From positions 1 through 40,524 of the IMG/VR virus record IMGVR_UViG_3300046002_005800: a stretch of DNA of 40,524 bases; one strand, written 5' to 3'. Source of the stretch: a virus. Shown piece after piece: positions 5,447-37,979 of this stretch. The translations under genes and the position numbers were made by a program. Position 1 is the stretch's first letter; each line of letters opens with the position of its first letter. The notes beneath the pieces were generated by a model, which worked only from the letters and a program-made list of their open reading frames with translations, had not been told where the DNA came from and did no database searches.

Positions 5447-5541
5447 CGTGCCCCTTCTGCGGCGGGGCGCACACGCTGAGCCAGTGCCCGCGGTGGCGGG
5501 TTCGAGGGTGGCTGTTTGATTTCAAGAAAGGCACGACATGA
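5443..5541 (+). CDS. 32-residue zinc-knuckle-like peptide
   Basis: The frame starts at ATG 5443 (MTCPFCGGAHTLSQCPRW) and overlaps both neighbours by four bases. The pattern C-x2-C-x4-H-x4-C is a CCHC zinc knuckle. Peptides like it occur in many phage genomes just before terminase. Nucleic-acid binding is likely from the motif alone. Confidence 0.65.
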   Translation: MTCPFCGGAHTLSQCPRWRVRGWLFDFKKGTT

Positions 5542-5906: not shown

Positions 5907-5907
5907 G

Positions 5908-6306
5908 GTGAGCCCCAAGGCCGAGCGGTTCGTCACCGAGTACCTGATCGACCTGAATGCGACCCGCGCGGCGATCCGTGCCGGGTACAGCGCGAAGACG
6001 GCCGGCAGCCAAGGCGAGCGGCTGTTGAGAAACGTTGAAATTTGTGCAGCAGTGAAAAAGGCGCAGTCGAAGGTGGCCGAAAACAACGGCATGACGGTCG
6101 ACGCGCACCTGCTGGCGCTCAAGGAGATCCGCGACGCAGCGATCGCCGAAGGCAAGTATTCGGCCGCGGCAACCGCCGAGGTAGCCCGGGGCAAGGTGGC
6201 CGGCTTCTACGTCGAGCAGGTGCGGGTCGAAGACGTGACCGACCGCGCCGCACAGATGCGCCAACGCAGGGAGGCCCGGCTTGCCGCACGACACTCTGGC
6301 CGATGA
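5908..6306 (+). CDS. terS: Terminase small subunit
   Basis: The 132-residue protein opens SPKAERFVTEYLIDLNATRAAIRAGYSAKTA, the signature of the Terminase_2 family, whose N-terminal helix-turn-helix recognises the packaging site. A helical oligomerisation region follows. The start is GTG 5908, served by GGAGG about seven bases upstream; no ATG fits. It overlaps the large subunit by 26 bases, as usual for the pair. Confidence 0.92.
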   Translation: MSPKAERFVTEYLIDLNATRAAIRAGYSAKTAGSQGERLLRNVEICAAVKKAQSKVAENNGMTVDAHLLALKEIRDAAIAEGKYSAAATAEVARGKVAGFYVEQVRVEDVTDRAAQMRQRREARLAARHSGR

Positions 6307-7738
6307 GATCGAGCAGTACGCCGACGACCCGGTCGGGTTCGTGCGCGACGCCTACGCCTGGGGCGAGGGCCAGCTCGCCAAGCACCAGGGCCCGCGGCAG
6401 TGGCAAACCGAGATCCTGCAGGCGATCGGCGACCATCTGAGCAACGAGTCGACCAGGTGCACGCCGCTGCGCCTGGCGGTCACCTCTGGCCACGGCATCG
6501 GGAAGTCCGCCCTGATCGGCATGGTGGTTGATTGGGCCATGTCGACGTGCGCCGAGACGCGGTGTGTCGTCACGGCCAACACCGAGGGCCAGCTCCGCAC
6601 CAAGACCTGGCCCGAAATCGGCAAGTGGACGCGCATGCTGGAGAACGCCGACTGGTGGCGCGTGCCGGCGATGTCGATGTATGAGGCCGAGCATGAGAAG
6701 TCCTGGCGGGCCGACGCGATCCCGTGGAGCGAGAACAACACCGAGGCATTCGCCGGCCTGCACAACGAGGGCAAGCGGGTGTTGCTGGTGTTCGACGAGG
6801 CCTCGCCAATCGCTGACAAGGTGTGGGAGGTCGCAGAAGGCGCGCTGACCGACAAGGACACCGAGATCATCTGGCTGGCCTTCGGCAACCCGACGCGCAA
6901 CACCGGCCGGTTCCGCGAGTGCTTCGGCAAGTACCGCCACCTCTGGCGAACGATGCAGATCGACAGCCGCACCGTCGAGGGCACCAACCGCGCCTATCTG
7001 GACGAGCTGGTCGAGACCTACGGCGAGGACTCCGACATCGTGCGGGTGCGGGTGCGCGGCCAGTTCCCGGCGCAGGCCGTATCTCAGTTCATCAGCAGCG
7101 AGGCCGTCGACATGGCCAGGACGCGGCGCCTGCAAGCGTTCGACGCTGGTGCCCCGCTGGTGCTGGGCGTGGACATCAGCCGCTTCGGTGATGACCAGAG
7201 CGTGATCCGCGGGCGCAAGGGGCGCGACGGCCGGGTGATCCCGCCGATCAAGTGGCGCGGCATGGATACCGTGTTCAGCGCCGGAAAGATCGCCGAAGCG
7301 ATCAACAAGTACCAGCCTGATGCCGTTTTCATCGACGGCGGCGGTGTGGGCGGCGGTGTGGTCGACCTCCTGAAGGCGCAGAACTACCGGGTGACCGAGG
7401 TCAACTTCGGCGCCGCGGCCAAGGACGCCAAGAAGTACGCCAACAAGCGCGCGGAGATGTGGGGCGACATGCGCGATTGGGTCGAGACCGGGGCGCTCGA
7501 TCAGGATGCCGAGCTGGCCGCCGACATGATCGGGCCCGAGTACCACTTCGACAAGGATTCCCGCATCCTGTTGGAGAAGAAGGAGGACATGAAGAAGCGC
7601 GGCCTGGCCAGCCCTGACGATGGCGACGCGCTGGCGCTGACCTTTGCAGGTCCGGTGCAGCGTACCGACATGAAGACCAGCCGCGGCGCGCTGGCCCGGG
7701 GCACTAGGTCGGTGACCGACTACGACGTGCTCGGCTGA
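6281..7738 (+). CDS. terL: Terminase large subunit
   Basis: This 485-residue packaging motor has an N-terminal ATPase with Walker A SGHGIGKSALIG (near residue 70) and Walker B LLVFDEAS. The C-terminal RNase H-like nuclease shows GVDISRFGDD, then AVFIDGGGVGG and the final SPDDGDALAL aspartates. The start is TTG 6281 with GGGAGG seven bases upstream. The length is normal. It pumps DNA into the prohead and cuts it at the end of packaging. Confidence 0.95.
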   Translation: MPHDTLADEIEQYADDPVGFVRDAYAWGEGQLAKHQGPRQWQTEILQAIGDHLSNESTRCTPLRLAVTSGHGIGKSALIGMVVDWAMSTCAETRCVVTANTEGQLRTKTWPEIGKWTRMLENADWWRVPAMSMYEAEHEKSWRADAIPWSENNTEAFAGLHNEGKRVLLVFDEASPIADKVWEVAEGALTDKDTEIIWLAFGNPTRNTGRFRECFGKYRHLWRTMQIDSRTVEGTNRAYLDELVETYGEDSDIVRVRVRGQFPAQAVSQFISSEAVDMARTRRLQAFDAGAPLVLGVDISRFGDDQSVIRGRKGRDGRVIPPIKWRGMDTVFSAGKIAEAINKYQPDAVFIDGGGVGGGVVDLLKAQNYRVTEVNFGAAAKDAKKYANKRAEMWGDMRDWVETGALDQDAELAADMIGPEYHFDKDSRILLEKKEDMKKRGLASPDDGDALALTFAGPVQRTDMKTSRGALARGTRSVTDYDVLG

Positions 7739-7739
7739 C

Positions 7740-7753
7740 CGGAATCCGTTCTC
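7740..7753 (+). promoter_or_regulatory. Intergenic motif CGGAATCCGTTCTC, copy 1
   Basis: This motif lies in the short gap behind the terminase gene. The same 14 bases recur at 12022-12035, and a close variant occurs at 26453-26467. All three copies are in gaps within the late operon, directly behind a stop codon. The core CGGAATCCG is an inverted repeat. A late promoter, activator site or RNA processing site are the obvious candidates; no -35/-10 pair was seen. Confidence 0.5.
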
Positions 7754-7795
7754 CGCCCAGCGCGACACCATGCCGCACCGTTCACGAGGTGCGCC

Positions 7796-7981
7796 ATGTC
7801 ATTCCTTCAGCCAAAGATGCCGGCCATGTCGGCGCCTCCGCCCCCGCCGGTCATCGAGGACACGCAGGCCAAGCAGCAAGAGCAGGCCGACCTGTTGCGC
7901 AGGCGCAAGGGCCGCGCCTCGTCCGTTCTGAGCCAGGGCGCCGCGCCCACCACCGCGGCGAAGACGCTGCTGGGCTCCTGA
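7796..7981 (+). CDS. Small conserved protein between terminase and portal
   Basis: The 61-residue protein has a proline run near residues 14-18, a charged middle (KQQEQADLLRRRKGRASSVL) and the ending AAKTLLGS. This layout is familiar from BPP-1/Bcep22-like podoviruses, where a similar small protein sits between terL and the connector. The ATG at 7796 has GAGG seven bases upstream. The function is not known to me. Confidence 0.8.
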   Translation: MSFLQPKMPAMSAPPPPPVIEDTQAKQQEQADLLRRRKGRASSVLSQGAAPTTAAKTLLGS

Positions 7982-7984
7982 CCG

Positions 7985-9604
7985 ATGGACTATGAAGCGC
8001 TGATGCGCCAGTTCGACCGGGCAAAGAACAACCGGTCGAACTTCGAGGACGTGTGGCAGCAGATCGCCGAGCGCGTGCTGCCGCAGATGGCCGACTTCAA
8101 TGTGCAGCGCCAGGACGGCGCCAGGCGCACCGAGAAGATGTTCGACCCGACTGCGGCACTGGCCGCCACCAAGGCCGTGAGCGCGATTGCCGCCTTCGCC
8201 TGGCCGTCGAATCAGCGCTACCAGAAGCTCAAGGCCAGCGACAAAAGCCTGATGCGCAGCCAGCGGGTGCGGGTGTGGTTCGATTCGCTGACCGATCGGC
8301 TGTTCGAGGCCCGCTACAGCCCGCGCGCCAGCTTCGAGAGCCAGATGGGCGAATCCGCCCTGATGTCGTTCGTGTTCGGAACGGGCGCGATGTTCATCGA
8401 TGAGGACATGAAGCGCAAAACGCTTCGGTACAAGAGCCTGCACCTGGCGCAGACCTACGTGGTCGAGGCCGCAGACGGCCGCATCGATCAGGTTTACCGC
8501 TGCTGGAAGTGGACCGTCCGCCAGGTGGCGCAGCGCTTCCAGAACATCCCCGACAAGCTGCGCGAGAAGCTGAAGACCCGGCCAGACGATGAGGTCGAGG
8601 TGTGCCACTTCGTCGGCCCGCGCGAAGACTTCGAGCCCGGCCGGCTCGGGCGTGGCGGCATGCCCTGGGCGTCGATGTACTACCTGCCGGCCGAGAAGCA
8701 TGTACTGGAGGAGGGCGGCTACATCTCGTGGCCGTTTGCCTTCCAGCGCTACATGACCACGCCCGGCGAGGTGTACGGGCGCAGCCCGGCCTGGCTGGCG
8801 CTGAGCAGCATCAAGGTGCTGAACACACAGAAGAAGTCGATCCTGCAGGCCGCGCAGAAGGCTGTTGATCCCCCGCTGCTGGCCGCCGAGGACGGCGTGC
8901 TGGGGGCGTTCTCGCAGGTGCCGGGTGCGGTGAACTTCGGCGCGCTCGACAGCCAGGGCAACCAGCTGGTCAAGCCGCTGACGACCGGCGCACGCATCGA
9001 CATCGGCATCGAGATGATGGACCGCGAGCGCGAGATCATCAGCGGAGCGTTCATGATGGACGTGTTCCGGGTGCTGGTCGAGAACCCGAACATGACCGCG
9101 ACGCAGACGCTGGAGCTGATGAACGAGCGCGCTGTGCTCATGGCGCCCATCGTCGGGCGCATCGAGAGCGAGTGCCACTCTCCGATGACCGAGCGCGAAA
9201 TCTCGCTGCTGGTCGAGGGCGGCCGGATCGACCCGATGCCGCCCGAGCTGGTCGAGGCGCAGGGCGAGTACCAGATCGAGTACACCAGCCCGATGCGCCG
9301 CGCCATGCGGTCGAGCGAGGCGATTGCCATCACCCGCACGCTGGAGTCGATCATCCCGCTGGCGCAGGTGGATCAGTCGGTGCTCGACAGCTACGACCTC
9401 ATGGAGATGGCGCGCGAGCTGGGCGAGATCAACGGCGTACCGGCAAAGTGTTTGCGCGACGCCGAGGCGATCAAGGCCATGAAAGACCAGCGCGCGACTG
9501 AGGCGCAGGCCCAGCAACTGCTGGAGGCTGCGCCGGTCGTCTCGCAGACCGCGGCGAACCTGGCCAAGATGCAGGCGGCTGGCGGTCTGCAGCCGGGCGT
9601 CTGA
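7985..9604 (+). CDS. Portal (head-to-tail connecting protein, T7 gp8-like)
   Basis: This 539-residue protein matches the head-to-tail connecting family of podoviruses. It opens MDYEALMRQFDRAKNNRSNFEDVWQQIAERVLPQ and carries ARRTEKMFDPTAALAATKAVSAI and later YGRSPAWLALSSIKVLN and NPNMTATQTLELMNERAVL. The dodecameric ring forms the DNA entry channel and the platform for the tail. Length and gene order (terL, small protein, portal) fit the family. Its stop overlaps the next start (TGATG). Confidence 0.93.
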   Translation: MDYEALMRQFDRAKNNRSNFEDVWQQIAERVLPQMADFNVQRQDGARRTEKMFDPTAALAATKAVSAIAAFAWPSNQRYQKLKASDKSLMRSQRVRVWFDSLTDRLFEARYSPRASFESQMGESALMSFVFGTGAMFIDEDMKRKTLRYKSLHLAQTYVVEAADGRIDQVYRCWKWTVRQVAQRFQNIPDKLREKLKTRPDDEVEVCHFVGPREDFEPGRLGRGGMPWASMYYLPAEKHVLEEGGYISWPFAFQRYMTTPGEVYGRSPAWLALSSIKVLNTQKKSILQAAQKAVDPPLLAAEDGVLGAFSQVPGAVNFGALDSQGNQLVKPLTTGARIDIGIEMMDREREIISGAFMMDVFRVLVENPNMTATQTLELMNERAVLMAPIVGRIESECHSPMTEREISLLVEGGRIDPMPPELVEAQGEYQIEYTSPMRRAMRSSEAIAITRTLESIIPLAQVDQSVLDSYDLMEMARELGEINGVPAKCLRDAEAIKAMKDQRATEAQAQQLLEAAPVVSQTAANLAKMQAAGGLQPGV

Positions 9605-13916: not shown

Positions 13917-14183
13917 ATGCCTATCCTCTTGAGCAATGCAAGTGCCACCGGCTCTCCTGCGCAATGGCGCGGCGGTCGGGGTGTCTTGACCGCGGTGGCC
14001 ACCTGGGGCGGCGGCAGCATCACGCTGCAGTACATGGGCCCGGACGGCAGTACCTGGCTGCCCGTCGGCTCGGCGCTTACCGCAAACGGGATGGCCTCAT
14101 TCGAGCTGCCGCCCGGCCTGATCCGCGCCGCTGTTGCCACCGCCACGGCCGCCTATGCGCAGGCCGAAGAATCGGAGAAATGA
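13917..14183 (+). CDS. Small hypothetical virion-block protein
   Basis: This 88-residue strand-rich protein contains WGGGSITLQYMGPDGSTWLPVGSAL, a beta-sandwich-like segment also common in phage decoration and neck proteins. GAGGGG lies about seven bases before ATG 13917. It ends with an Ala-rich helix. I cannot name a family. Confidence 0.75.
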   Translation: MPILLSNASATGSPAQWRGGRGVLTAVATWGGGSITLQYMGPDGSTWLPVGSALTANGMASFELPPGLIRAAVATATAAYAQAEESEK

Positions 14184-29469: not shown

Positions 29470-30492
29470 TCACCGCACCGGAGTCAGCCGCTCGCCCTGC
29501 ACATAGTGCTGCCGCGTCACGCTCAGCGAGCTGTGCTGCAGCAGCGTCGAAGCATCGCCCAGCGACCCGGCAAGCTGGCCCGCGCGCTTGCGCATGTCCC
29601 GCAGCCACAACGCAGCAACGGCCGGGCACTCAATAGCCGCAGCAGCGCGGGCTTTGGTGAACCTGTCGGCCAGCATGCGATAGGTAACAGGGCGCCGGCC
29701 AGCCGCCAGCAGAAAGACGTGCTCGGGCTCTTTCATGGCGCGGCGCCGGTCGATGATCGGCTGCAGCACCTGCGACGCAGAGAGGTCGAACTCGGCGCGC
29801 TTGCCGGTCTTGCCAGTCTTCACCACCAGGCGCCCGCCGCGCACGTCCGACAGCCGCAGGCCAAGCACGTCGGTAACGCGCAGGCCGGTCGCTGTGGCGA
29901 TGTCCAGGGCATCGCGCAGGGTCTGGTCGGCGTGATTGTGCAGGGCCGCGAAGGCATCGTCTGCCACGTCAATCTGCCGCGTGCCTGTCGGGCCTTTCCA
30001 GCCCGAACGCTGCATGTCTGCCGCAGGCCAGGGCCGTTCGGTCATGCCCTCAAGGCGAGCCCAGCCCCAGATGACCGACAGAAGCTGCATCTCCTGCTTG
30101 GCGCGACCCTTCGCGCTGCGGGCGTCGATGTAAGCCTTGAGCGTCGGCATGCGGATGTCCTCCCACCTGGCGCCACCAAACGGCCCGCGGATCGCACGCA
30201 GGCACTTGAGGTAGCCGGCGATCGTCTCGGGGCTGCGTGGTCGACCATCGGGGCGGGCCTTGATGCCGCGATCCTCCCAGGCCCTGAACGCTTCTTCCAG
30301 CGTGCCGGCAATCCTGGGCGCGTCGAGGTGAACCTCTGCCCAGCGGCGCAACGCTTCCCCGCGGTCATTTCCTAGCGGAATGTCAGGCTTGCCGGTGCCG
30401 CGCATGTCATACCACCAGCTTGTCCAAACCTGTCCAGCCTTGCCGCGCTTCACGCTCACGCGGAGCTTCGGGTACTTGGCGGGCTTGGGCAT
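29470..30492 (-). CDS. int: Phage tyrosine integrase
   Basis: This 340-residue recombinase has a core-binding domain (about 60-160) and a catalytic domain with the first arginine in ATGLRVTDVLGLRL, the beta-hairpin lysine KTGKTGKR, then LRDMRKRAG in place of HxxR, LLQHSS, and the tyrosine in VTRQHYVQ. The RDMR substitution occurs in many phage integrases of proteobacteria. The extra helix typical of integron IntI enzymes is not seen. The start ATG 30492 lies one base behind the DUF4224 stop (TGACATG). It should integrate the phage at tRNA-Ser through the attP behind it. Confidence 0.93.
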   Translation of the reverse strand: MPKPAKYPKLRVSVKRGKAGQVWTSWWYDMRGTGKPDIPLGNDRGEALRRWAEVHLDAPRIAGTLEEAFRAWEDRGIKARPDGRPRSPETIAGYLKCLRAIRGPFGGARWEDIRMPTLKAYIDARSAKGRAKQEMQLLSVIWGWARLEGMTERPWPAADMQRSGWKGPTGTRQIDVADDAFAALHNHADQTLRDALDIATATGLRVTDVLGLRLSDVRGGRLVVKTGKTGKRAEFDLSASQVLQPIIDRRRAMKEPEHVFLLAAGRRPVTYRMLADRFTKARAAAAIECPAVAALWLRDMRKRAGQLAGSLGDASTLLQHSSLSVTRQHYVQGERLTPVR

Positions 30493-30493
30493 G

Positions 30494-30700
30494 TCAGCGA
30501 ACCAACGAGAAATCAACGCCAGAGGGTGCGCGCGACTTCGGCAGCAGTTCGTGCGCTTGCGCAACCTGGCGCGACACGCGGATCGCGCGGCCGAGGAAAA
30601 CGAACGGAACGCCCAGCTTCGCCAGCACTGCGGCTTGCGAGACTACGCGGCTTTTGCCGGTGATCGCGGCCAGCTCTGCGGGGCTGAGTTCGTCGGCCAT
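30494..30700 (-). CDS. DUF4224 protein, possible excisionase
   Basis: The 68-residue protein contains LSPAELAAITGKSRVVSQAAVLAKLGVPFVFLGRAIRVSR, the DUF4224 pattern (helix-turn-helix-like). These proteins sit directly before phage integrases and are suspected excisionases or integrase regulators. The start at ATG 30700 is two bases behind the previous stop (TGAGCATG), so it is coupled at both ends. Confidence 0.82.
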   Translation of the reverse strand: MADELSPAELAAITGKSRVVSQAAVLAKLGVPFVFLGRAIRVSRQVAQAHELLPKSRAPSGVDFSLVR

Positions 30701-30702
30701 GC

Positions 30703-31086
30703 TCAGACCGCCGCGGCGTCCGCTTCGTCCCGCGTCGAGTAGCCGTCCTGGCGCTGGCACAGCGTGCGCTTGCTCTGCGCCTTCGGCCATCCATCGCGCA
30801 GCAGATCGTGCAACCGCGTCAGGCCGGCAGCATCGGCGACAGTCTCGCCGTCAACCTCGGCCGCCCATTGGTCACTGCGGTGGTGCGGATCGCGCATCAG
30901 CCGCATGATGACCGTGTGCCCGTTGATGCAGCCGCCCAGCCAGTCGCCGTGAAGCGGCGCAGTCGGCGGGTAGGCCGGCGTAGGGCCTGCGATGCTGGCG
31001 GCCTCGCGCGCACGCTGTCGGCGCTGGTGGGCGCCTGGCGTGGCGTTGTAGCGGCGCCAGCGGTTCGGAGTTTGCAAGGTGTGCAT
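30703..31086 (-). CDS. Hypothetical protein at the edge of the cassette array
   Basis: This 127-residue basic protein contains GDWLGGCINGHTVIMRLMRDPHH and a charged tail; no family recognised. Its ATG (31086) lies eight bases from the lone GTTAGCC box at 31095, and no ribosome site precedes it. If the array is removed, the gene before it would end five bases from this ATG, so translation by coupling is likely in the ancestral arrangement. The cassette insertion may have altered its expression. Confidence 0.65.
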   Translation of the reverse strand: MHTLQTPNRWRRYNATPGAHQRRQRAREAASIAGPTPAYPPTAPLHGDWLGGCINGHTVIMRLMRDPHHRSDQWAAEVDGETVADAAGLTRLHDLLRDGWPKAQSKRTLCQRQDGYSTRDEADAAAV

Positions 31087-31094
31087 ATCGACTA

Positions 31095-31101
31095 GTTAGC
31101 C
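31095..31101 (+). other. Lone GTTAGCC box, attI-like left boundary of cassette array
   Basis: The box is identical to the right-hand box of attC7 (34891-34897) and to the complement of boxes in attC1 and attC8. No hairpin or second box lies to its left. In an integron the first cassette joins a simple site, attI, at just such a G/TT. It therefore marks the entry edge of the array or a secondary insertion site. The TTA at 31096-31098 is also the stop codon of the exonuclease gene. Confidence 0.7.
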
Positions 31102-31518
31102 GGCACCAACAGCCCCGCGCGCCAAAGCCCGCGCATCCTCCAGCGCGTTGTGCGGAATGGCAGAGGTGGTCGATGTGTCTGGCAGATCGCGGCGCACTTC
31201 AAAGGTCATGCGGTCAGGCCCGATTCGGTCGCCTGGCCGGTACTCCAAGAAGTTGCAGAAGTGCGAGATGTCGCCCGGCCAGTCCGAGACGATATGCACG
31301 CTGTCGAACCCGCAAAGAAACCCGTCAAGCGATGCGCGTAGGTCCGTGTCGCGCTGCGGCTCTTGGTTCAGGTGCGGCATCACATGCTCGCCAACCCACC
31401 AGCCGGGGTCATCGCAGTAGCGCACGCCGTACCACTCGCGGCCGTCCTCAGCCACCAGCGCCAGAGAAATGAGCGCACCCTTGTACTCGTTGAATTCGGT
31501 GTCTATCCACAGTTTCAC
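31096..31518 (-). CDS. DEDDh 3'-5' exoribonuclease-like protein (cassette 1)
   Basis: The 140-residue protein opens KLWIDTEFNEYKGALISLALVAEDGREWYGV, with the DxE of DEDD exonucleases, then SDWPGDISHF and the final HNALEDARAL (H-x4-D) motif. It resembles Rv2179c-type RNases. The start is GTG 31518 with GAAGGA seven bases upstream; the ATG at 31526 is out of frame. The TAA stop is made by the first three bases of the cassette. RNA or DNA trimming is implied; its benefit to the phage is unknown. Confidence 0.85.
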   Translation of the reverse strand: MKLWIDTEFNEYKGALISLALVAEDGREWYGVRYCDDPGWWVGEHVMPHLNQEPQRDTDLRASLDGFLCGFDSVHIVSDWPGDISHFCNFLEYRPGDRIGPDRMTFEVRRDLPDTSTTSAIPHNALEDARALARGAVGAG

Positions 31519-31559
31519 GTTTGCATCCTTCGGTTGTTCGCTGGCATGGGTCGGGCGCC

Positions 31560-31618
31560 GGCTAACCCGTCGCTGCACCGGACCTGCTTACGCAGGCCGG
31601 TGAGCTTTTGCGTTGGGC
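31560..31618 (+). other. attC1 (59 bp)
   Basis: Left box GGCTAAC (31560-31566), spacer CCGTC, arm GCTGCACCGG, an inner CCTGC/GCAGG hairpin, arm CCGGTGAGC, spacer TTTTGC, right box GTTGGGC (31612-31618). The left arm has one extra base (the second G of GCTGCACC), as in canonical attC read on the top strand. The gene at 31588 reads into it leftwards and stops in its loop. Confidence 0.88.
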
Positions 31619-31830
31619 GTCTCGTTCCAGCCCAGCGCCGCAAGCACGCAGCCTTCGGTGGCGCAGTAAACACCGCGCCCGTGGAGGAAGGCGCTGCCCA
31701 TGTAAACGTTGCGCTGACAGTTCCCGCACACACCCATAAGGGCGGGAGCCGCAGGTGGCAACGACTCGGCAAGGCGAAGCCGGTCGATGGCGGCCAGGAT
31801 GGGGTGCCGCTCAAGCTGGCCGTCACTCAT
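31588..31830 (-). CDS. Zn-ribbon-like small protein (cassette 2)
   Basis: This 80-residue protein starts at ATG 31830 behind GAGGA, overlapping the previous gene (ATGAGTGA). It has CGNC about midway and CATEGC 19 residues later, a likely four-cysteine zinc site. Its C-terminus, TPNAKAHRPA, is encoded by attC1 of the neighbouring cassette, so it would change if the cassette order changed. Function unknown. Confidence 0.75.
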   Translation of the reverse strand: MSDGQLERHPILAAIDRLRLAESLPPAAPALMGVCGNCQRNVYMGSAFLHGRGVYCATEGCVLAALGWNETPNAKAHRPA

Positions 31831-31978
31831 CGCGGCTGTCCTCATAGGCCCGCGCCCGATCTTCGGGCGGCAAGTCAAAGAAGTTGTCCACGCCGCCGCG
31901 CTCTGCCGCATCGCGCATGCGCTCGGCTCGCTCGTCGGCGGGTCGGTTCCAGAATCCGTTGTTGCTGTCGTTGTTCAT
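31823..31978 (-). CDS. 51-residue acidic protein (cassette 2)
   Basis: The frame starts at ATG 31978 with GAGGGA four bases upstream; in-frame ATGs at 31990 and 31999 are alternatives. The product (MNNDSNNGFWNRPADERAERMRD...FFDLPPEDRARAYEDSRDE) is highly charged and helical. It overlaps the next gene by eight bases, so cassette 2 is a two-gene cassette. Function unknown. Confidence 0.7.
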   Translation of the reverse strand: MNNDSNNGFWNRPADERAERMRDAAERGGVDNFFDLPPEDRARAYEDSRDE

Positions 31979-32011
31979 CGCGTCCCTCATTCGTTGCATC
32001 TAAAACCAGCC

Positions 32012-32074
32012 GCCCAACACGCCGCTCAACCCGGACCCGCGCAAGGCGCGGGCCGGTTAGCGGCAACGTTAGGG
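32012..32074 (+). other. attC2 (63 bp)
   Basis: Left box GCCCAAC (32012-32018), spacer ACGCC, arm GCTCAACCCGG, GC-rich stem, arm CCGGTTAGC, spacer GGCAAC, right box GTTAGGG (32068-32074; last base not a pyrimidine). The left arm carries the extra C. The TAA of the gene at 32069 lies in the right box. Confidence 0.85.
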
Positions 32075-32248
32075 CGCACCACGCTTCGCCAGCCGTTGCC
32101 GCCTGCGAGCAATCTTTGCGGCAGCTTCCTTTACTTCGGCGTGGTCGTCAGGGTGCGCAAAGATTCCGCGCACCTCGACCGCCTCGGTGTCTGCCTTGCG
32201 CTGGCGAAACTCGCGCTGGCGCTCTGCGTTGGTCTTGGCTGCGTTCAT
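32069..32248 (-). CDS. 59-residue basic helical protein (cassette 3)
   Basis: The protein (MNAAKTNAERQREFRQRKAD...EVRGIFAHPDDHAEVKEAAAKIARRRQR) resembles small phage proteins with a basic N-terminal helix and a VRGI.AHPDDHA segment, perhaps nucleic-acid binding. It overlaps the previous gene (ATGA at 32245-32248). Its TAA is formed by the first bases of the cassette. Confidence 0.75.
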   Translation of the reverse strand: MNAAKTNAERQREFRQRKADTEAVEVRGIFAHPDDHAEVKEAAAKIARRRQRLAKRGAP

Positions 32249-32517
32249 GTGCGTGGCTCTTCGCCGCAGTCATGCACAACTGGCGTTTTCCACGTTGGCA
32301 GGGGTGGCTCGGCCAGCATGCGGGAAACGTCCCGTGCAATCGCGCGTTCGCTCTGTGCGCCGGTTTCTTGCACCTCCGCGCAGTAACGACGAACCCCATA
32401 AATCGCATGGCTTTGCATCGCCAGCTCCATCACGCACCGCAAGGCCGCGTCGCGGTCGGCTACCACGCCAAAACTGGCCTTGCTGATGTACTGCCGCAGT
32501 CGTGAAAAGTTGTCCAT
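32245..32517 (-). CDS. Hypothetical 90-residue protein (cassette 3)
   Basis: The protein (MDNFSRLRQYISKASFGVVADRDAALRCVMELAMQSHAIYGVRRYCAEVQ...) is helical with no family I recognise. Its ribosome site is weak (GAGA). A short AAGGGC/GCCCTT hairpin (about 32529-32544) separates it from the promoter-proximal gene. Its stop overlaps the next start, giving a coupled pair in a three-gene cassette. Confidence 0.7.
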   Translation of the reverse strand: MDNFSRLRQYISKASFGVVADRDAALRCVMELAMQSHAIYGVRRYCAEVQETGAQSERAIARDVSRMLAEPPLPTWKTPVVHDCGEEPRT

Positions 32518-32548
32518 CGTGTTCTCGCAAAGGGCTTTCGCCCTTGGG

Positions 32549-32710
32549 TTAGAGGCCGTAGTCAGTGACTACGCCGTTGATGATGATGGTGTAACCGGGG
32601 CGCTTTGCGCGCCACTCGGTCACGCTGAAGGAAGACATACGGCGGGGAGCGCCGTTGTTGAAACGGACGATGAGGTGAAGGCCCTTGTTTTCGACGGTGA
32701 TGGTGTTCAT
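32549..32710 (-). CDS. 53-residue protein, first gene of three-gene cassette 3
   Basis: The protein (MNTITVENKGLHLIVRFNNGAPRRMSSFSVTEWRAKRPGYTIIINGVVTDYGL) alternates beta strands and looks like a small beta barrel or sheet. GGAG lies eight bases upstream of ATG 32710. Its own promoter seems to lie at 32745-32773. The frame was too short for routine ORF calling but has phage-like codon use. Confidence 0.72.
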   Translation of the reverse strand: MNTITVENKGLHLIVRFNNGAPRRMSSFSVTEWRAKRPGYTIIINGVVTDYGL

Positions 32711-32744
32711 GTGTTTGCTCCGGGTGGTGTGTTGCGATGAATGA

Positions 32745-32773
32745 ACTATAGCACCGTTACGCGTAACGTAGAG
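32745..32773 (-). promoter_or_regulatory. Cassette-borne promoter with 14-bp palindromic operator
   Basis: On the minus strand a -10 TATAGT (32750-32745) is preceded at 17 bases by a weak -35 CTCTAC (32773-32768). The spacer is filled by CGTTACGCGTAACG (32755-32768), a perfect 14-bp palindrome. The start point near 32738 gives a 28-base leader to the gene at 32710. A repressor dimer on the palindrome would cover the promoter. No regulator gene is obvious within the cassette. Confidence 0.5.
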
Positions 32774-32825
32774 GGTCTAGCAGGTCTTTTCTGTGTCTTT
32801 ACAATTGCGCGTCACTGCACCAACG

Positions 32826-32883
32826 CCCTAACAGGGCGCTCGAACGGACTGCCTACGGCAGCCGTTCAGCTACGTCGTTAGGC
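32826..32883 (+). other. attC3 (58 bp)
   Basis: Left box CCCTAAC (32826-32832), spacer AGGGC, arm GCTCGAACGG, inner CTGCC/GGCAG hairpin, arm CCGTTCAGC, spacer TACGTC, right box GTTAGGC (32877-32883). The extra base is the C in the left arm. The right box supplies the TAA of the gene at 32878. Confidence 0.9.
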
Positions 32884-33177
32884 CCCAAGCACGTCGGGCG
32901 CCATCTTCTTGCCGAGCGTCACTTCGGTAACCGTGAAGCACCCTCTAGCTTGGTCGTCGCGCGTCACAAAGAGCGAATCGAAGTCGCTGCTTCGCGGGGC
33001 CGGTTGCCAGCGCGCCCAGCGGTGCTTGATGCTGTGCGCGAAGTCGCCGCATCCCTGGCCGCAGCCGTGCTCCAGCGCGGCGCGGGCCTCGGCCAGCGTT
33101 ACATGACCGCGCACGTATTCAACGTCGCTGTCGTCATCCCAGTAAATTGCGATGTACTCGCCGGGCTTCTCTTTCAT
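32878..33177 (-). CDS. Hypothetical 99-residue protein (cassette 4)
   Basis: The protein (MKEKPGEYIAIYWDDDSDVEYVRGHVTLAEARAALE...) begins with an acidic strand pattern and has two cysteines in HGCGQGCGDF. AGGAG lies six bases before ATG 33177. It is the only gene of its cassette and stops with TAA in the box of attC3. No family recognised. Confidence 0.75.
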   Translation of the reverse strand: MKEKPGEYIAIYWDDDSDVEYVRGHVTLAEARAALEHGCGQGCGDFAHSIKHRWARWQPAPRSSDFDSLFVTRDDQARGCFTVTEVTLGKKMAPDVLGA

Positions 33178-33207
33178 GCTTGCTCCTGTGCCTTCGTTCA
33201 ACATGGG

Positions 33208-33261
33208 GCCTAACCTGTCGTTCGAGGCGACCCTTCGGGCGCCTCAACTTCGACGTTATGC
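33208..33261 (+). other. attC4 (54 bp)
   Basis: Left box GCCTAAC (33208-33214), spacer CTGTC, arm GTTCGAGGCG, loop around CCCTTCGGG, arm CGCCTCAAC, spacer TTCGAC, right box GTTATGC (33255-33261). The extra base is the C of GTTCGAGG. The methyltransferase frame reads through the whole element (VEVEAPEGSPRTTG) and stops at its far box. Confidence 0.9.
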
Positions 33262-33950
33262 ATCGCAAGCACCTCAAGCGCATGCATGCCCAAGAATTCA
33301 GAGTACGCGGGCGGTATCGCGTTGTTCGTGTCGCCGGTCGCGCCGCGCTTTCTTGAGGCCCCGCCCATGCTCGGCATCCAGGGCGTGCCCTGCGCCTCGC
33401 GCAACTTGTCGGCGGTGCGGCCAGGTCCGTGCCACGGGTCGTAAATGTCGCGGTGGTCACACGGCGGCATCAGCAGAGGCAGCTCAAAGCTCGCCTCAAA
33501 AAAGCGGTGCTTCGCAATCCGCAGCCCGAACATCGAGCCGCAGAGCATCAGGCTTTCACGCAGCGGGCTACCCGCCACGTTCTCCATGATCCACAGGCCG
33601 CCCCAGGCTTGCAGCTTTTCCCGCATCGGGGCCACAAGGTCGCGGTGCGCCGCGCTGTTCTTGTGCATGCGCTGCATCTCGCTGTAGGCCTGGCATGGCG
33701 GCGAAGCCCACACCAAGTCGAACCCCGACAGGTCGGCGTCCAGCGCGTCACCCTGGCGGAACGCAAACGGGTAATAGGGCTGCTTGTTTATGTCCATGCC
33801 CTCCACCTCAAAGCCTGCGCGGTGTAGCCCCATGCCTGCGCCTCCAGCGCCACAAAACAAATCCAGGCAACGTATGGCGCGGCTATGCATAACAGGTCGC
33901 TCAACCGGACCCGGCAAGGCGGGCGGCAGGGTTGCATCTTCAAAGTTCAT
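33210..33950 (-). CDS. Cytosine-C5 DNA methyltransferase, phage type (cassette 5)
   Basis: This 246-residue enzyme has motif I CLDLFCGAGGAGMGLHRAGF, the catalytic motif IV SPPCQAYSEM, motif VI WIMENVAG, motif VIII AKHRFFEA and the closing IPPAYSEFLG. The small target-recognition region is usual for compact phage enzymes. The ATG 33950 lies in the loop of attC5 with AAGG six bases upstream, so residues about 5-22 (ATLPPALPGPVERPVMHS) are attC-encoded, and the last 15 residues come from attC4. The next internal ATG has no ribosome site. No cognate nuclease is near, so protection against host restriction is the likely role. Confidence 0.9.
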   Translation of the reverse strand: MNFEDATLPPALPGPVERPVMHSRAIRCLDLFCGAGGAGMGLHRAGFEVEGMDINKQPYYPFAFRQGDALDADLSGFDLVWASPPCQAYSEMQRMHKNSAAHRDLVAPMREKLQAWGGLWIMENVAGSPLRESLMLCGSMFGLRIAKHRFFEASFELPLLMPPCDHRDIYDPWHGPGRTADKLREAQGTPWMPSMGGASRKRGATGDTNNAIPPAYSEFLGMHALEVLAMHNVEVEAPEGSPRTTG

Positions 33951-33988
33951 CACGCGCCTTTCCGGGCCGGTTAGCTATCACGTTGGGC
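33887..33988 (+). other. attC5 (102 bp) with a translated loop
   Basis: Left box GCATAAC (33887-33893), spacer AGGTC, arm GCTCAACCGG, extended stem, arm CCGGTTAGC, spacer TATCAC, right box GTTGGGC (33982-33988). The extra base is the C of GCTCAACC. The loop holds the stop of the gene at 33940 and the ribosome site and ATG of the methyltransferase, both on the minus strand. Confidence 0.9.
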
Positions 33989-34194
33989 GTCTTGAGGTTG
34001 CCCAGGCGCCGCAGTGATCCGCATGGCCGCGAGTATTCGCCGGGCTTGCTTGTCTCGCTGGCTTCGTAGTGGCTGCGGTGCCGTGTCCAAGTGTTTTCCA
34101 GCCACCAGCGGCTGGCCGGGCGGTCAATGTTGGCGCTACACACGGCGCACAGTGGCGAGCCGTCAACGCGGAAGTGAAGGGTGATGTCACTCAT
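33940..34194 (-). CDS. Small protein with CxxC pair (cassette 6)
   Basis: This 84-residue protein (MSDITLHFRVDGSPLCAVCSANIDRPASRWWLENTWTRHRSHYEA...) has one CAVC motif, perhaps half a zinc site. GGAGG lies seven bases before ATG 34194, and the frame overlaps the zinc-ribbon gene before it by eight bases. The C-terminus (TPNVIANRPGKARDEL) is encoded by attC5 of the neighbouring cassette. Its stop overlaps the methyltransferase start. Confidence 0.75.
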   Translation of the reverse strand: MSDITLHFRVDGSPLCAVCSANIDRPASRWWLENTWTRHRSHYEASETSKPGEYSRPCGSLRRLGNLKTPNVIANRPGKARDEL

Positions 34195-34336
34195 CGTCGT
34201 CCTCCGGCGCCGCGTCTTCCGCGTCAAAAATCTCGCCACAAGCGGCGCACCGCTCTAGGCCCTCGTCGCTCTGGCCGTAGTCAAAGCCGTCGTCATACTG
34301 GTAGTGCGTTTTGCATCCGCACTTGGGGCATGCCAT
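34187..34336 (-). CDS. 49-residue zinc-ribbon protein (cassette 6)
   Basis: The protein (MACPKCGCKTHYQYDDGFDYGQ...LERCAACGEIFDAEDAAPEDDDE) carries CPKC and CAAC, a clear four-cysteine zinc ribbon, and an acidic tail. AGGAG lies eight bases upstream of ATG 34336. It is coupled to the next gene, so cassette 6 is a two-gene cassette. Nucleic-acid or protein binding is likely. Confidence 0.78.
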   Translation of the reverse strand: MACPKCGCKTHYQYDDGFDYGQSDEGLERCAACGEIFDAEDAAPEDDDE

Positions 34337-34361
34337 GTCTGTTTGCTCCTAAATTCCAGCC

Positions 34362-34449
34362 GTCCAACTGTGTGCTCAACCGGACCCGTGGCGGCAGCGG
34401 TTCGCCCCGTTTGGTTCAGCGCGCGGGTCCGGTTAGCACGGCGTTAGAG
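34362..34449 (+). other. attC6 (88 bp)
   Basis: Left box GTCCAAC (34362-34368), spacer TGTGT, arm GCTCAACCGGACCCG, 35-base loop, arm CGGGTCCGGTTAGC, spacer ACGGC, right box GTTAGAG (34443-34449). The 11-bp inner stem AACCGGACCCG/CGGGTCCGGTT is perfect. The extra base is the C of GCTCAACC. Confidence 0.88.
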
Positions 34450-34854
34450 CGCTCGCACTGCATCGGCCAGTTTGCAGGCCAGCAGCCGCACAGACTCGTC
34501 GGCGCGGGCATATGCGCGGGCAAACTGTCGATGCCCGATGTGTGATGCGACAGCCAGCTCATCGAAAGCCGCCAGGGGTTTACGCTGCGCCAGATCGGCC
34601 GCGACGGTATAGATCGCGCCAACATGGGCGTGCCGTGGCCGGGCCTGTTGCCACGCACTCCAAGCTATTGCGGCGGTCGATTCGATGTAGCCGCCGTCCG
34701 CTTCCATCCTCGCCAGCTTTGCTGGGTGGTAAGACCGGCACCACCACGACTCGAAATCCTCGCGCTCCGGGTGGGGCGCTCTAACCCCTCGCTGAACCGG
34801 AACCCCAACAGCGGGCCGGTTGTCTGCTGTGCTCGGTGTGTTTTCGTCTGTCAT
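34444..34854 (-). CDS. Hypothetical phage protein with attC-encoded N-terminus (cassette 7)
   Basis: The body of this 136-residue protein (REDFESWWCRSYHPAKLARMEADGGYIESTAAIAWSAWQQAR) resembles a common phage module of the F..W...YI...W.AWQ type. The ATG 34854 lies in the loop of attC7 with GGGA upstream, so the first 28 residues are encoded by attC. The TAA is in the right box of attC6. Function unknown. Confidence 0.75.
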   Translation of the reverse strand: MTDENTPSTADNRPAVGVPVQRGVRAPHPEREDFESWWCRSYHPAKLARMEADGGYIESTAAIAWSAWQQARPRHAHVGAIYTVAADLAQRKPLAAFDELAVASHIGHRQFARAYARADESVRLLACKLADAVRAL

Positions 34855-34897
34855 TTGTGTTCCCGCTGTAGGGTTCCGGTTAGCTCAAACGTTAGCC
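34779..34897 (+). other. attC7 (119 bp), longest, with a translated loop
   Basis: Left box CTCTAAC (34779-34785), spacer CCCTC, arm GCTGAACCGGAACCC..CAGCGGG, 46-base loop, matching arm CCCGCTGT..GGTTCCGGTTAGC, spacer TCAAAC, right box GTTAGCC (34891-34897). The stem of over 20 bp is the strongest in the array; the extra base is the G of GCTGAACC. The ATG of the gene at 34854 lies in the loop. Confidence 0.9.
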
Positions 34898-35095
34898 GGC
34901 TGCCTGTTTCTCAGCATTCCTAGCGCGCTGAATCGGCCGGATGTCACCCCACCAGACAGCGATAGACAGCGCAAGCCATGAGGCAGCCGCCACGGCTGGG
35001 AAAACGCTGCCGCTGATGTATCCAGTGGCAGACCAGACCGCGCTATTCACGGTCCACGCCAGGAAGTACATCGTTGAAATCACTTCTCTGTCCAT
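34892..35095 (-). CDS. Small membrane protein (cassette 8)
   Basis: This 67-residue protein has two adjacent hydrophobic segments (MYFLAWTVNSAVWSATGYI and VFPAVAAASWLALSIAVWW) and a basic tail (RPIQRARNAEKQAAG). AGGA lies five bases before ATG 35095. Its TAA is in the right box of attC7. A two-helix inner membrane protein expressed early may act in superinfection exclusion; this is a guess from topology. Confidence 0.75.
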   Translation of the reverse strand: MDREVISTMYFLAWTVNSAVWSATGYISGSVFPAVAAASWLALSIAVWWGDIRPIQRARNAEKQAAG

Positions 35096-35127
35096 CACTG
35101 TCCTTTCGTGCCTGCGCTCAACACGCC

Positions 35128-35209
35128 GGCTAACACTTCGCTGAACCTTCGCTCCGCTTCGCTGCGCCGGACACGCCTACGGCGTGCCGGGTTAGCTCAA
35201 CCGTTAGGC
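35128..35209 (+). other. attC8 (82 bp)
   Basis: Left box GGCTAAC (35128-35134), spacer ACTTC, arm GCTGAACC, inner CACGCC/GGCGTG hairpin, arm GGGTTAGC, spacer TCAACC, right box GTTAGGC (35203-35209). The extra base is the G of GCTGAACC. Confidence 0.88.
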
Positions 35210-35497
35210 CCGTTCACTCGCGGCCAGCATGTCGCAGTCGTTCAGCAGCGCAAGCACAGCCGCTACGGTAAGCCAGTGGTTTCCGTTCTCCTGCATGTTT
35301 TCCAGCCGCGCAACGAACATACCGCGCGACGACCGCTCGGCCTCGGCGTTGGCTTTCAGTTCCGCAATCTCGTCAGAATCTGCCTCAATTCGGCACGCGG
35401 CCTGTTGGGCGCGGCTCACAAACTGCCGTAGCGTCATCGGGTCCGGGCTCTCTGGCATCGGCATGCGTAGCACGCCCAAAAGCATCACATCGCTCAT
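35204..35497 (-). CDS. Hypothetical 97-residue protein (cassette 9)
   Basis: The protein (MSDVMLLGVLRMPMPESPDPMTLRQFVSRAQQAACRIEADSDEIAELKANAEAERSSR...) has a helical, coiled-coil-like middle. AGGAA lies about seven bases before ATG 35497. The frame is open far upstream (to 35863) but the extra part crosses attC9 and antisense of another gene, so the internal start is right. TAA lies in the right box of attC8. Function unknown. Confidence 0.78.
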   Translation of the reverse strand: MSDVMLLGVLRMPMPESPDPMTLRQFVSRAQQAACRIEADSDEIAELKANAEAERSSRGMFVARLENMQENGNHWLTVAAVLALLNDCDMLAASERA

Positions 35498-35541
35498 ATA
35501 GTTTCCTTTGTTCGTCAACTTCTTCGCGCCCCGGCCGCATG

Positions 35542-35613
35542 GCCTAACAGGGCGCTGCACCGGAACCCTTCCGGCGTGCCGCCTACAGGGTCCGGTGAGC
35601 TTCGTCGTTAGGC
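35542..35613 (+). other. attC9 (72 bp)
   Basis: Left box GCCTAAC (35542-35548), spacer AGGGC, arm GCTGCACCGGAACCCT, loop with CCGGCGTGCCGCC, arm AGGGTCCGGTGAGC, spacer TTCGTC, right box GTTAGGC (35607-35613). Both boxes match RYYYAAC/GTTRRRY perfectly. The extra base is the G of GCTGCACC. Confidence 0.92.
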
Positions 35614-35975
35614 CCGTACAGCGCCCGCAGGTCGTTGAATTTGTCCAGCGCCGCCGCGTGCGCCGGGCCAATCGGTATCGAGGTGATGCCGGCTGTTTTG
35701 GCGGTCTCGCACGTCTCGCGCCATGAGGCATCGGCCAGCGCGAAGTAGCTGGCCAGGTCGGCGCGCATGCGCTCAACATCGCCCAGCAGCACGGCCCGAT
35801 GCGGGACACTGTGCGGGTAAGCCACATCGAAGCTGGCCGCACTCTCCAGCGCATCGCGCTCACTTGCGCATAGCGTGGCGAGGCCGCTCTTTGTCACCGC
35901 ATACCAGCGCGCTTCTGCGGCACGGCCTAACCCATCGGTCAACCGGACCTTTGCCGGCGTGCTTTCTGTGGTCAT
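35583..35975 (-). CDS. Hypothetical protein with attC-encoded ends (cassette 10)
   Basis: This 130-residue protein has a helical body (AEARWYAVTKSGLATLCASERDALESAASFDVAYPHS...). The ATG 35975 is inside the loop of attC10 behind a GGAGG site four bases away, and it overlaps the previous stop (ATGA). Residues 5-19 (STPAKVRLTDGLGRA) come from attC10 and the last ten (GPNDEAHRTL) from attC9. No family recognised. Confidence 0.78.
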   Translation of the reverse strand: MTTESTPAKVRLTDGLGRAAEARWYAVTKSGLATLCASERDALESAASFDVAYPHSVPHRAVLLGDVERMRADLASYFALADASWRETCETAKTAGITSIPIGPAHAAALDKFNDLRALYGPNDEAHRTL

Positions 35976-36020
35976 TTCGCCTCCGTTGCCGGCAAAGGCC
36001 GGTTAGCTTGGTCGTTGGGC
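35935..36020 (+). other. attC10 (86 bp), right boundary, with a translated loop
   Basis: Left box GCCTAAC (35935-35941), spacer CCATC, arm GGTCAACCGGACCTTTGCC, 29-base loop, arm GGCAAAGGCCGGTTAGC, spacer TTGGTC, right box GTTGGGC (36014-36020). The loop contains a GGAGG ribosome site and an ATGA stop-start overlap for the two leftward genes that meet there. The extra base is the C of GGTCAACC. Confidence 0.9.
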
Positions 36021-36271
36021 GTCAAACCACCACCCCCCGCATACAACTCCGCCATCGCGCCAACGTGCGACAGCAGCTGCTTGCAGATCAGTTGGTACTG
36101 CGACTCGGTGTAGAGCTGCGCCCGCTTGTCCGTCGCTGCTGGCCTGACGTGCAGTTGCTCGGCCAGGAAGGCGCCGCTGATCGTGAAGCAGAGCCGGCCG
36201 CAGATTGCGCCGAGGGTGAGGGTTGCGGGCTCGGCGGTGGCCGGAATGCTGGCGGATTCATTGGTAGTCAT
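35972..36271 (-). CDS. Phage backbone protein whose end is rewritten by attC10
   Basis: The 99-residue protein (LTLGAICGRLCFTISGAFLAEQLHVRPAATDKRAQLYTESQYQLICKQLLSHV) looks like a small phage DNA-binding-type protein found near recombination genes. GAGGA lies about six bases before ATG 36271. The last 14 residues (NDQANRPLPATEAK) are attC10-encoded. If the array is removed, the frame would end TPN followed by TAG, five bases before the ATG at 31086. It therefore marks the interrupted backbone gene. Confidence 0.8.
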   Translation of the reverse strand: MTTNESASIPATAEPATLTLGAICGRLCFTISGAFLAEQLHVRPAATDKRAQLYTESQYQLICKQLLSHVGAMAELYAGGGGLTPNDQANRPLPATEAK

Positions 36272-36279
36272 GTCGATCC

Positions 36280-37458
36280 TCAGAATGGAACGTCTGAATC
36301 AGGGATTCCGGCCAGCGCTGCCATCTGCTTGACGGTCTGCGCGCGCGCGACGGCCTTCTCTGCATCGCCAGGCCGCGCCGGCTTCACGTCGGCATCGAGG
36401 TCGCTGTCGGGCATGTCGTCGAAGCCGGTGCCCGACACGACGCGCGCGGTTGGGAAGGCGGCCTTGGCCGCCAGCACGGTGGCGTCCAGCACAGCCGGCC
36501 CGGCCTTGCGAATCTCGATGCTGCTGAACCCTGGCGCCGGTCCATTGGTGAACTGCGCGCCGGTCTTGTCCTGGTAGATGACGTGGTTCTCGCCGCCGTC
36601 GATGGGCTCGCCAAGAGCGGCCAGCAGGGGCGGGATGAACAGGTGCTCGGCGCAGCCGGTGCGCTGCTTCTTGTCGTCCAGTGCCGTGGCGCCGCGGCAC
36701 GTCCACTCGCCGCGCGCCAGGTCGGGCGTGGAGTTGGCGCACGTCCTGCAGTTCACCTCGGGCACTTCGGCGCCGTGGCACACCTCGTAGAACCGGCACC
36801 ACTTGCACTCGAAGTAGGCCGGGTCCGTGCTGATACCCAGCGGCGGCGCGGCGGCGGTGATGATGCGCTCGGCCCGCGCGAGGATCGCCTCGCCCGCGGC
36901 CTTGTCGTGCTCGATGCGCTCAAGGTGCAGCGCGTCGGTGTTCTTGTTCACAGCGAAGTACAGCGCGCGGTCCAGGCCCATCAGGTGCATGTAGGTCTGC
37001 ATCTGCGTCCAGTGCATCGGCTTGGCTGCGCGCACGCCCTTCTTGACCAGCTCGGCGAACAGCTTGTCGCTGTGGGTCTTGATCTCCAAGACATGCACAG
37101 CCTTCGGCGCTTCGGGCAGACCGGCCACCACACCATCGACAGACCCACCGAAGAAGCCGGCCACCGCGCTAACGCGGTACTGGCCGGTGCCGTCGTCGGC
37201 CCACACCTCGCAGCCGATCCCGCGCAATTCCTCGTAGACGCGCGGCTCCTCTCGCTTGCCGGTGTCGAACAAGCGCAGGATGCGCCCATCGAATTGCTCG
37301 GTCGACACCCAGCGGAACAACTGCCACAGGTAGCGGTCGCAGGCGTGGCCGATCACCGACGCGCCAAGGTGCGGGCGGTGGCCGTTGTCGGCCGTCTTCT
37401 CGCGCCAGCGCACAACGGCTTGCGCCGTCGTGTTGCTCGGTTGCGGGATCGCGGCCAT
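36280..37458 (-). CDS. PD-(D/E)XK (RecB/Cas4-like) nuclease
   Basis: This 392-residue protein has the nuclease core GGSVDGVVAG...AVHVLEIKTHS (D and ExK) near residues 110-150 and a following YMHLMGLDRALYFAVNK. Cysteine-rich segments (FECKWCRFYEVCHG; CRTCANS; TGCAEHLF) suggest an iron-sulphur or zinc site like Cas4. It follows the Sak4-like and DUF669 genes, so it probably makes single-stranded ends for annealing or repairs replication forks. Confidence 0.88.
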   Translation of the reverse strand: MAAIPQPSNTTAQAVVRWREKTADNGHRPHLGASVIGHACDRYLWQLFRWVSTEQFDGRILRLFDTGKREEPRVYEELRGIGCEVWADDGTGQYRVSAVAGFFGGSVDGVVAGLPEAPKAVHVLEIKTHSDKLFAELVKKGVRAAKPMHWTQMQTYMHLMGLDRALYFAVNKNTDALHLERIEHDKAAGEAILARAERIITAAAPPLGISTDPAYFECKWCRFYEVCHGAEVPEVNCRTCANSTPDLARGEWTCRGATALDDKKQRTGCAEHLFIPPLLAALGEPIDGGENHVIYQDKTGAQFTNGPAPGFSSIEIRKAGPAVLDATVLAAKAAFPTARVVSGTGFDDMPDSDLDADVKPARPGDAEKAVARAQTVKQMAALAGIPDSDVPF

Positions 37459-37460
37459 GG

Positions 37461-37979
37461 TCAGGCTGTCGCCTTGCGCGCCCACGGGGGCGATGCGGCA
37501 GGTGTGGCCTGGGCGGCGGGCCGGGCGGGTGCTGCGTGCGCTGCAGCGGGCAGGGCGGCGCCGGCCGGCTCGAAACCGCTGATCTCGGCCTTGGCGGCGT
37601 AGTTGCCTTGCGCGGCGCGGATCTTGGTGCGGATGCGCACGACGCGCTGGAACAGCTGATCGCTGTCGTCGAGCTGGTTGATTCCGACCGACCGGCACAG
37701 CGCCGACAGCTGCGACTGTCCGATCTGCTCGGCCTGCTGGTTCGTGTGCTGGATGTTCAGGGTCGACCACACCTTGCGCTTGGCGAACGGCGCCGGGTCG
37801 ATCACCGTGCACTCGATCTCCAGGCCGGTGCCGTTGCCCGACTTGAGCGGCTTGACATCGGCGTTCGTGATCTCGACGGTGTACAGGCCGGCCGGCAGCG
37901 GCTCGTTGTCGCGTGGGGCCTGGGGTTCGACGTTGGCGGCGTTGAAGCCGCCGGGGATGAATTGGGCGAGGGATGCCAT
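37461..37979 (-). CDS. DUF669 single-strand-binding-like protein
   Basis: The 172-residue protein fits DUF669: LPAGLYTVEITNADVKPLKSGNGTGLEIECTVID, then KRKVWSTLNIQHTNQQAEQIGQSQLSALCRSVG. It ends in an Ala/Pro-rich tail. Members sit beside phage recombinases and are thought to bind single-stranded DNA. Its stop is two bases before the nuclease ATG. Confidence 0.87.
   Translation of the reverse strand: MASLAQFIPGGFNAANVEPQAPRDNEPLPAGLYTVEITNADVKPLKSGNGTGLEIECTVIDPAPFAKRKVWSTLNIQHTNQQAEQIGQSQLSALCRSVGINQLDDSDQLFQRVVRIRTKIRAAQGNYAAKAEISGFEPAGAALPAAAHAAPARPAAQATPAASPPWARKATA

Follow-up and report, generated by a model that had tools for sequence, protein, structure and literature searches.

An array of inverted attC cassettes in a temperate phage, very probably part of a phage integron lineage

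The 40,524-base IMG/VR record IMGVR_UViG_3300046002_005800, a virus record that was analysed over its whole length (hereafter, the window), contains ten integron-type gene cassettes, extending from a core at 31095 to 36014 within an early operon. In our opinion, the sequence data make it very probable that this is the cassette array of a phage integron lineage, of which the window is a member devoid of its own integron integrase gene. All ten cassettes are coded antisense to their own attC sites and in the same direction as the phage operon; a phage integron lineage with inverted cassettes is apparently undescribed so far. By gene content the virus is a tailed temperate phage, terminase, head-tail, tail and integrase (PF00589) genes being present within one record; the PHROGs matches include terminase, head-tail adaptor, tail proteins and a Sak4-like protein (phrog_2, phrog_332, phrog_376).

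A preliminary description, made from the sequence alone, had listed ten attC sites in this region and none in the rest of the phage. A motif scanner (RYYYAAC box, 5-base spacer, arm, complementary arm, 5-6-base spacer, GTTRRRY box; score of at least 12) recovered nine of the ten on the + strand, as compared with 0.15 expected per strand from dinucleotide shuffles, and found no site in the window beyond 31560-36020. The covariance model R1, built from five attC sites of class 1 integrons and three sites of Tetrasphaera phage TJE1, with none from the window, also matched nine sites over the full model length and on the + strand (E values from 1.3e-8 to 1.3e-3), its sole other match in the window being one of the same nine read on the - strand (E 1.2, 12.7 bits). 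The site missed by R1 was attC7; a second model, R2, which consists mainly of phage sites, four of them from the window, recovered all ten, attC7 weakly (E 0.043). The models thus place the sites where they had been described, and neither the scanner nor R1 finds any outside the array; the positions needed one correction, the start of attC10, which lies at 35925 instead of 35935, and the 5-base right spacer proposed for attC6 agrees with the scanner. In an alignment of 33 sites (32 of the phage family and one class 1 reference), seven of the 13 consensus pairs are preserved although both partners have changed, and the 5' arm has an unpaired base that remains extrahelical, as in class 1 attC. 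The array thus comprises multiple same-strand attC sites with R'', L'', L' and R' boxes at cassette spacing, as is expected of a cluster of attC sites lacking an integron integrase (CALIN). It is extremely unlikely that these hairpins are transcriptional or translational elements of the operon (terminators, processing sites) resembling attC, even though structured sites between operon genes are common and the sites are intergenic, some of them with start codons in the loop. Rfam gave no match in the window at gathering thresholds, while the independent model R1 was matched with all boxes and spacers; besides, complementarity spans the cassette rather than a single site, and whole cassettes are exchanged at G/TT (here and below, the slash marks the junction at the core).

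A genuine cassette opens with a core that pairs with the R'' box of the attC closing it; within an array, this core is the R' box of the site before. Each window cassette starts at G/TTRRRY and closes with an attC, and 9/10 show perfect complementarity between R'' and the four variable bases of the left-hand core, cassette 6 having three of the four; the partner of cassette 1 is the lone core GTTAGCCGGC at 31095. Related contigs were mostly retrieved with a single attC pattern derived from the window, which yielded 72 IMG/VR contigs, most of them having attC sites. In the window and related contigs taken together, facing core boxes match at all four positions in 185 of 216 cassettes, versus 68 of 216 for boxes within one attC. 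Since this complementarity is symmetric, it supports the cassette history but not the direction, and we dropped it as an orientation test.

The orientation of the attC sites was determined from R1 and from the edges of the array (a lone core on the left, a complete attC on the right), both of which indicate the + strand. The direction of the genes was judged by codon scores trained on the structural-region genes of the window phage: in nine cassettes they range from 5.3 to 21.3 on the - strand and from -9.5 to 0.6 on the other, and the remaining cassette encodes a PF00145 methyltransferase on the - strand. Cassette genes typically, though not obligatorily, run in the same direction as their attC, and all ten of the window depart from this. 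Open reading frame (ORF) length alone was rejected as a polarity test, being too noisy in GC-rich DNA, and codon scores and Pfam were used instead; among nine long cassettes searched on both strands, Pfam matched six of the nine antisense ORFs and none of the nine sense ones. In the survey of 51 contigs, 174 cassettes proved antisense and one sense (41 unresolved), whereas the control integrons (P1, Vibrio, Shewanella, Rctr41k) gave seven sense cassettes and no antisense ones by the same procedure. The class 1 control was misjudged with the codon table of the window; the controls were scored with their own codon tables.

The polarity would be ordinary if the attC sites had been misread and the true array strand were -, but we consider this highly improbable. 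Admittedly, attC is near-palindromic, and the motif scanner gives scores to several of the sites on the - strand too, there with 5-base spacers. However, R1, which models annotated integrons, gives 24-44 bits on the + strand and 12.7 at best on the - strand, and the predicted attC orientation fits the annotated genes in the class 1 integron of P1, in Vibrio, Shewanella and Rctr41k, and in TJE1. The edges of the array speak against the misreading as well, and so does the location of intI and attI on the predicted side in IntI-bearing phages. Without a scoring matrix, R1 found 70 sites in 14 related contigs; within each contig they all lie on the same strand, opposite to o127 (the small gene at the left boundary of the window array) or to intI. 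The inverted polarity is also reflected in the details of gene arrangement: in six window cassettes (31096, 32069, 32878, 34444, 34892, 35204) and in 63 of the 174 antisense cassettes of the survey, the TTA of the core, read on the opposite strand, provides the gene with its stop codon, and start codons lie inside the three longest attC sites (33950, 34854, 35975). With their own stop and, in the longest sites, a start inside attC, the cassette genes should make the array translatable as one operon.

The left boundary of cassette 1, at 31095, is a lone core G/TTAGCC adjoining o127. The early operon ends at this boundary, beside the phage integrase module. Ten IMG/VR viral contigs carry relatives of o127 (60-88% identical), named phages carry none, and the genome collection gave a single short weak match of 26 residues; its AlphaFold model was unusably poor (predicted local distance difference test score, pLDDT, 52). 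In all eight distinct contigs holding the 5' end of o127, similarity to the window stops at the core G/TTRRRY beside the o127 start, and past that core each has a different cassette and then attC sites, a positive outcome for the search of relatives for arrays with different cassettes that the preliminary description had proposed. The backbone downstream of o127 varies among the phages (terminase, tail or lysis genes; several records contain terminase genes), which indicates that o127, the attI-like site and the array are a module common to distinct phage backbones. In contig L087 (3052-13648), about 19 attC sites lie to both sides of o127, divided between an array at the o127 site and another past the gene. 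The closest integrase relatives, L081-L084, have the DUF4224-integrase pair in common with the window but lack o127 as well as attC sites, and their upstream genes are different, so that they provide no clean empty site. Another relative, L005, was recognized by its nuclease gene, the product of which is 56% identical to that of 36280-37461 in the window; it has its own small array of two cassettes with the same geometry between early genes and the integrase. An apparent half attC (R'' side only, 14040-14087) terminates this array, and its last cassette may therefore be locked in place.

The window record has no match to TIGR02249, which bears out the earlier statement that intI is missing, and the combination of intI with an adjacent attI that defines a complete integron is absent from it. 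Related phages do have this combination. Contigs L033 and L047 encode full-length IntI (428 and 425 bits, cut-off 265) and share the gene order phage integrase, intI, attI, inverted cassettes, early genes. IntI relatives occur at 27 loci according to a profile scan, several of these loci being near copies. Where enough flank is available, intI mostly adjoins either an excisionase-like gene or that of a phage integrase; the context of the attI core is conserved beside the intI start, and 29 cassettes are antisense and none sense (5 unresolved). In the IntI tree, 13 phage proteins form one clade (96/93), joined with a class 1/Aquabacterium pair (86/92). In L114, the integrase and the DUF4224 protein are 69% and 68% identical to those of the window, and the gene adjoining DUF4224 is intI, its counterpart in the window being o127; judging from these similarities, L114 connects the intI and o127 types of the phage array.

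Cassettes are also common to the two types. The first cassette of L090 (o127 type) begins as ...CATATCGACTAG/TTAGGGCACTTCAAAACAGCGCC, and the second cassette of L047 (IntI type), which lies behind an attC, as ...CTTAGCTCGAACG/TTAGGGCACTTCAAAACAGCGCC; the two matching pieces together span most of the cassette, as far as its attC. A cassette methyltransferase of L047 (3086-4207) contains an in-frame tandem repeat PHLGDAGQGVNRK in about six copies; over the stretch that matches, its L090 relative is about 170 bases shorter. The methyltransferase cassette of the window (33256-33982) is 86% identical at the nucleotide level, from the core on, to the cassette at attI of L026, the junctions being ...CTTCGACG/TTATGCATCGCAAGCA and ...ATTGACG/TTATGCCTCGCAAGCA, respectively. 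The gene of cassette 9 has relatives (tblastn) in the arrays of L032, L035, L068 and L076. As identical cassette starts follow different left sequences in different phages, the cassettes were evidently inserted by site-specific recombination, and the swapping of cassettes at the core between arrays (L090/L047; window/L026) is what is expected of a CALIN. It seems unlikely, though less so than the two alternatives considered above, that the array is a frozen fragment of a bacterial chromosomal integron, acquired once and passively inherited, like that which Qi et al. (2023) described for Vibrio anguillarum phages. The lack of IntI in the window would agree with this, and phages carrying pieces of host integrons are documented (PMC9892861). 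A frozen fragment, however, does not account for the fact that at least eight other phages have different cassettes at this junction, for cassettes common with IntI-bearing phages at exact cores, or for the inverted genes, which differ from the Vibrio case and the other controls.

Pfam analysis of 19 long antisense cassette genes identified nine DNA methyltransferases (one of them MT-A70) and one Lar restriction-alleviation protein. Relatives of the C5 methyltransferase of the window in named collections are mostly phage genes (290 phage records, 11 plasmids). A cargo so rich in DNA methyltransferases suggests a swappable counter-restriction repertoire with a role in evading restriction. In cassette 6, a small zinc-ribbon-like protein (34187-34336) has a weak match to Lar restriction-alleviation proteins, below the cut-off (E 0.017).

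The following mechanism may be proposed for the phage integron lineage. IntI, supplied in trans by a co-resident IntI-bearing phage or by a host integron, would fold the attC strand and insert circular cassettes at the core at 31095, serving as attI, or recombine attC with attC. New genes would thereby join an already transcribed operon at its downstream end, transcription running toward the insertion site. In this position only inverted genes would be useful, so that cassettes inverted relative to attC would be selected, and the polarity would be explained without any special property of attC. No sigma-70 promoters were found in a scan of the operon. We are inclined to go further, with less assurance than for the array itself, and regard it as rather likely that this is a phage-adapted integron system. 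It would comprise a phage IntI clade, attI beside the phage integrase and a circulating pool of inverted cassettes, which enter where the early operon ends and are thereby expressed at once. Its cargo would act as an exchangeable repertoire against restriction, and members lacking intI, such as the window phage, would be served in trans at an o127-linked attI-like site.

Several points weigh against these interpretations. Recombination is deduced from the cassette junctions; IntI would have to act in trans, since the window has none; and the o127-type site appears only loosely attI-like outside the core. The comparison contigs, having been found with a window-derived pattern, may over-represent one pool; they are uncultured and can be partial, and several are overlapping or near copies. 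Finally, the polarity survey covered phage contigs and controls, and inverted cassettes with this attC type may therefore not be confined to phages.

Phage CALINs are known: Qi et al. (2023; PMC9892861) found 17 of them and three complete integrons among 10,705 phage genomes and showed that IntI1 recombines phage attC sites with attI1. Their CALINs in Tetrasphaera phage TJE1, Pseudoalteromonas phage PH101 and Polaribacter phage P12002L are likewise attC clusters without intI and with methyltransferase cargo. The cassettes of TJE1 and PH101 are described there as typically oriented, and our check confirmed the sense direction for TJE1, in contrast to the ten antisense cassettes of the window, whose array is also longer than the three attC sites of TJE1 and whose lineage adds a conserved attI-like site with exchanged cassettes. 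The window array belongs to the CALIN class but departs from it by inverted polarity, a conserved attI-like site and IntI-bearing relatives. The earlier assessment of the array as a rare find is to be qualified accordingly: these features, including the phage IntI of relatives, are the unusual ones, whereas attC clusters as such have been published for phages (PMC9892861) and were retrieved in IMG/VR by a single pattern.

The complete integrons of temperate phages (Vibrio phage Va_90-11-286_p16, Shewanella phage M16-3 and a P1 isolate; PMC9892861) are similar to the window in having integron parts inside a temperate phage. In the Vibrio phage, however, the array is a subset of the host chromosomal integron, and the P1 case is class 1 (PMC9892861); none of them represents a phage-specific pool, and their genes are sense, unlike those of the window. 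Class 1 integrons share the attC architecture of the window (boxes, 5- and 6-base spacers, extrahelical base), and IntI1 is about 57% identical to IntI of L033, but they have IntI1, which the window lacks, and their cassette genes run away from attI under Pc, whereas those of the window run toward the attI-like site with the phage operon. Virus Rctr41k (KX853513), which neither Table 1 nor Table 2 of PMC9892861 names, resembles the phage lineage by an integron integrase relative in the phage early operon with attC nearby; its cassette genes, however, are sense to attC, and its IntI falls outside the 13-member phage clade. The locus (4680-8813) holds this relative of integron integrases (about 46%), annotated as xerD, and, downstream of it, three or more attC-like sites. 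A search of the literature outside most subscription journals and all preprints revealed no account of inverted cassettes in a phage integron lineage, of a phage IntI clade or of an o127-type site.

Table 1. Features of the array and its surroundings (window positions unless a contig is named)
Feature	Position	Strand	Remarks
Tyrosine integrase of phage type, not integron integrase	29470-30492	-	PF00589; no TIGR02249
DUF4224 protein adjoining integrase	30494-30703	-	PF13986
o127, small gene, left boundary of array	30703-31086	-	Occupies intI position of relatives
attI-like site	31086-31101	+	Conserved CATATCGACTAG/TTAGCC, core G at 31095; flank conservation ends at core
Cassette 1 gene, RNase H-like	31096-31518	-	phrog_2259; codon score
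attC1	31560-31618	+	Closes cassette 1 (31096-31612); R1 34.0 bits
attC2	32012-32074	+	Closes cassette 2 (31613-32068), small genes on - strand by codon score; R1 24.2 bits
attC3	32826-32883	+	Closes cassette 3 (32069-32877), three small genes on - strand by codon score; R1 40.8 bits
Cassette 4 gene	32878-33204	-	85% identical in IntI-bearing contig L113, match beginning at core
attC4	33208-33261	+	Closes cassette 4 (32878-33255); R1 43.6 bits
C5 DNA methyltransferase, cassette 5	33210-33953	-	PF00145; start codon within attC5
attC5	33887-33988	+	Closes cassette 5 (33256-33982); R1 38.5 bits
attC6	34362-34449	+	Closes cassette 6 (33983-34443); right spacer 5 bases; R1 28.6 bits
Cassette 7 gene	34444-34854	-	Start within attC7
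attC7, 119 bp	34779-34897	+	Closes cassette 7 (34444-34891); scanner score 18; R2 E 0.043
attC8	35128-35209	+	Closes cassette 8 (34892-35203); R1 30.8 bits
attC9	35542-35613	+	Closes cassette 9 (35204-35607); R1 34.2 bits
Cassette 10 gene	35583-35975	-	Start within attC10; ATGA overlap with flanking gene 35972-36271 inside attC10
attC10, 96 bp, right edge of array	35925-36020	+	Closes cassette 10 (35608-36014); R1 27.6 bits
PD-(D/E)XK nuclease, early operon, upstream of array	36280-37461	-	PF12705 slightly below its cut-off
intI of related contigs	L033 698-1807; L047 1489-2433		L103-L128 also carry IntI relatives, mostly beside phage integrase

Integrons are usually studied as bacterial platforms of gene capture, with phages as occasional carriers of their pieces. 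Here, a phage lineage appears to own a cassette platform, the cassettes of which are turned to suit its operon. If this is true, early genes of phages, chiefly those of DNA methyltransferases, would be swapped in a site-specific manner, and cassettes would have an intercellular route. The polarity rule offers a clear and testable prediction of the way in which such a platform adjusts when genes are expressed in a new context.

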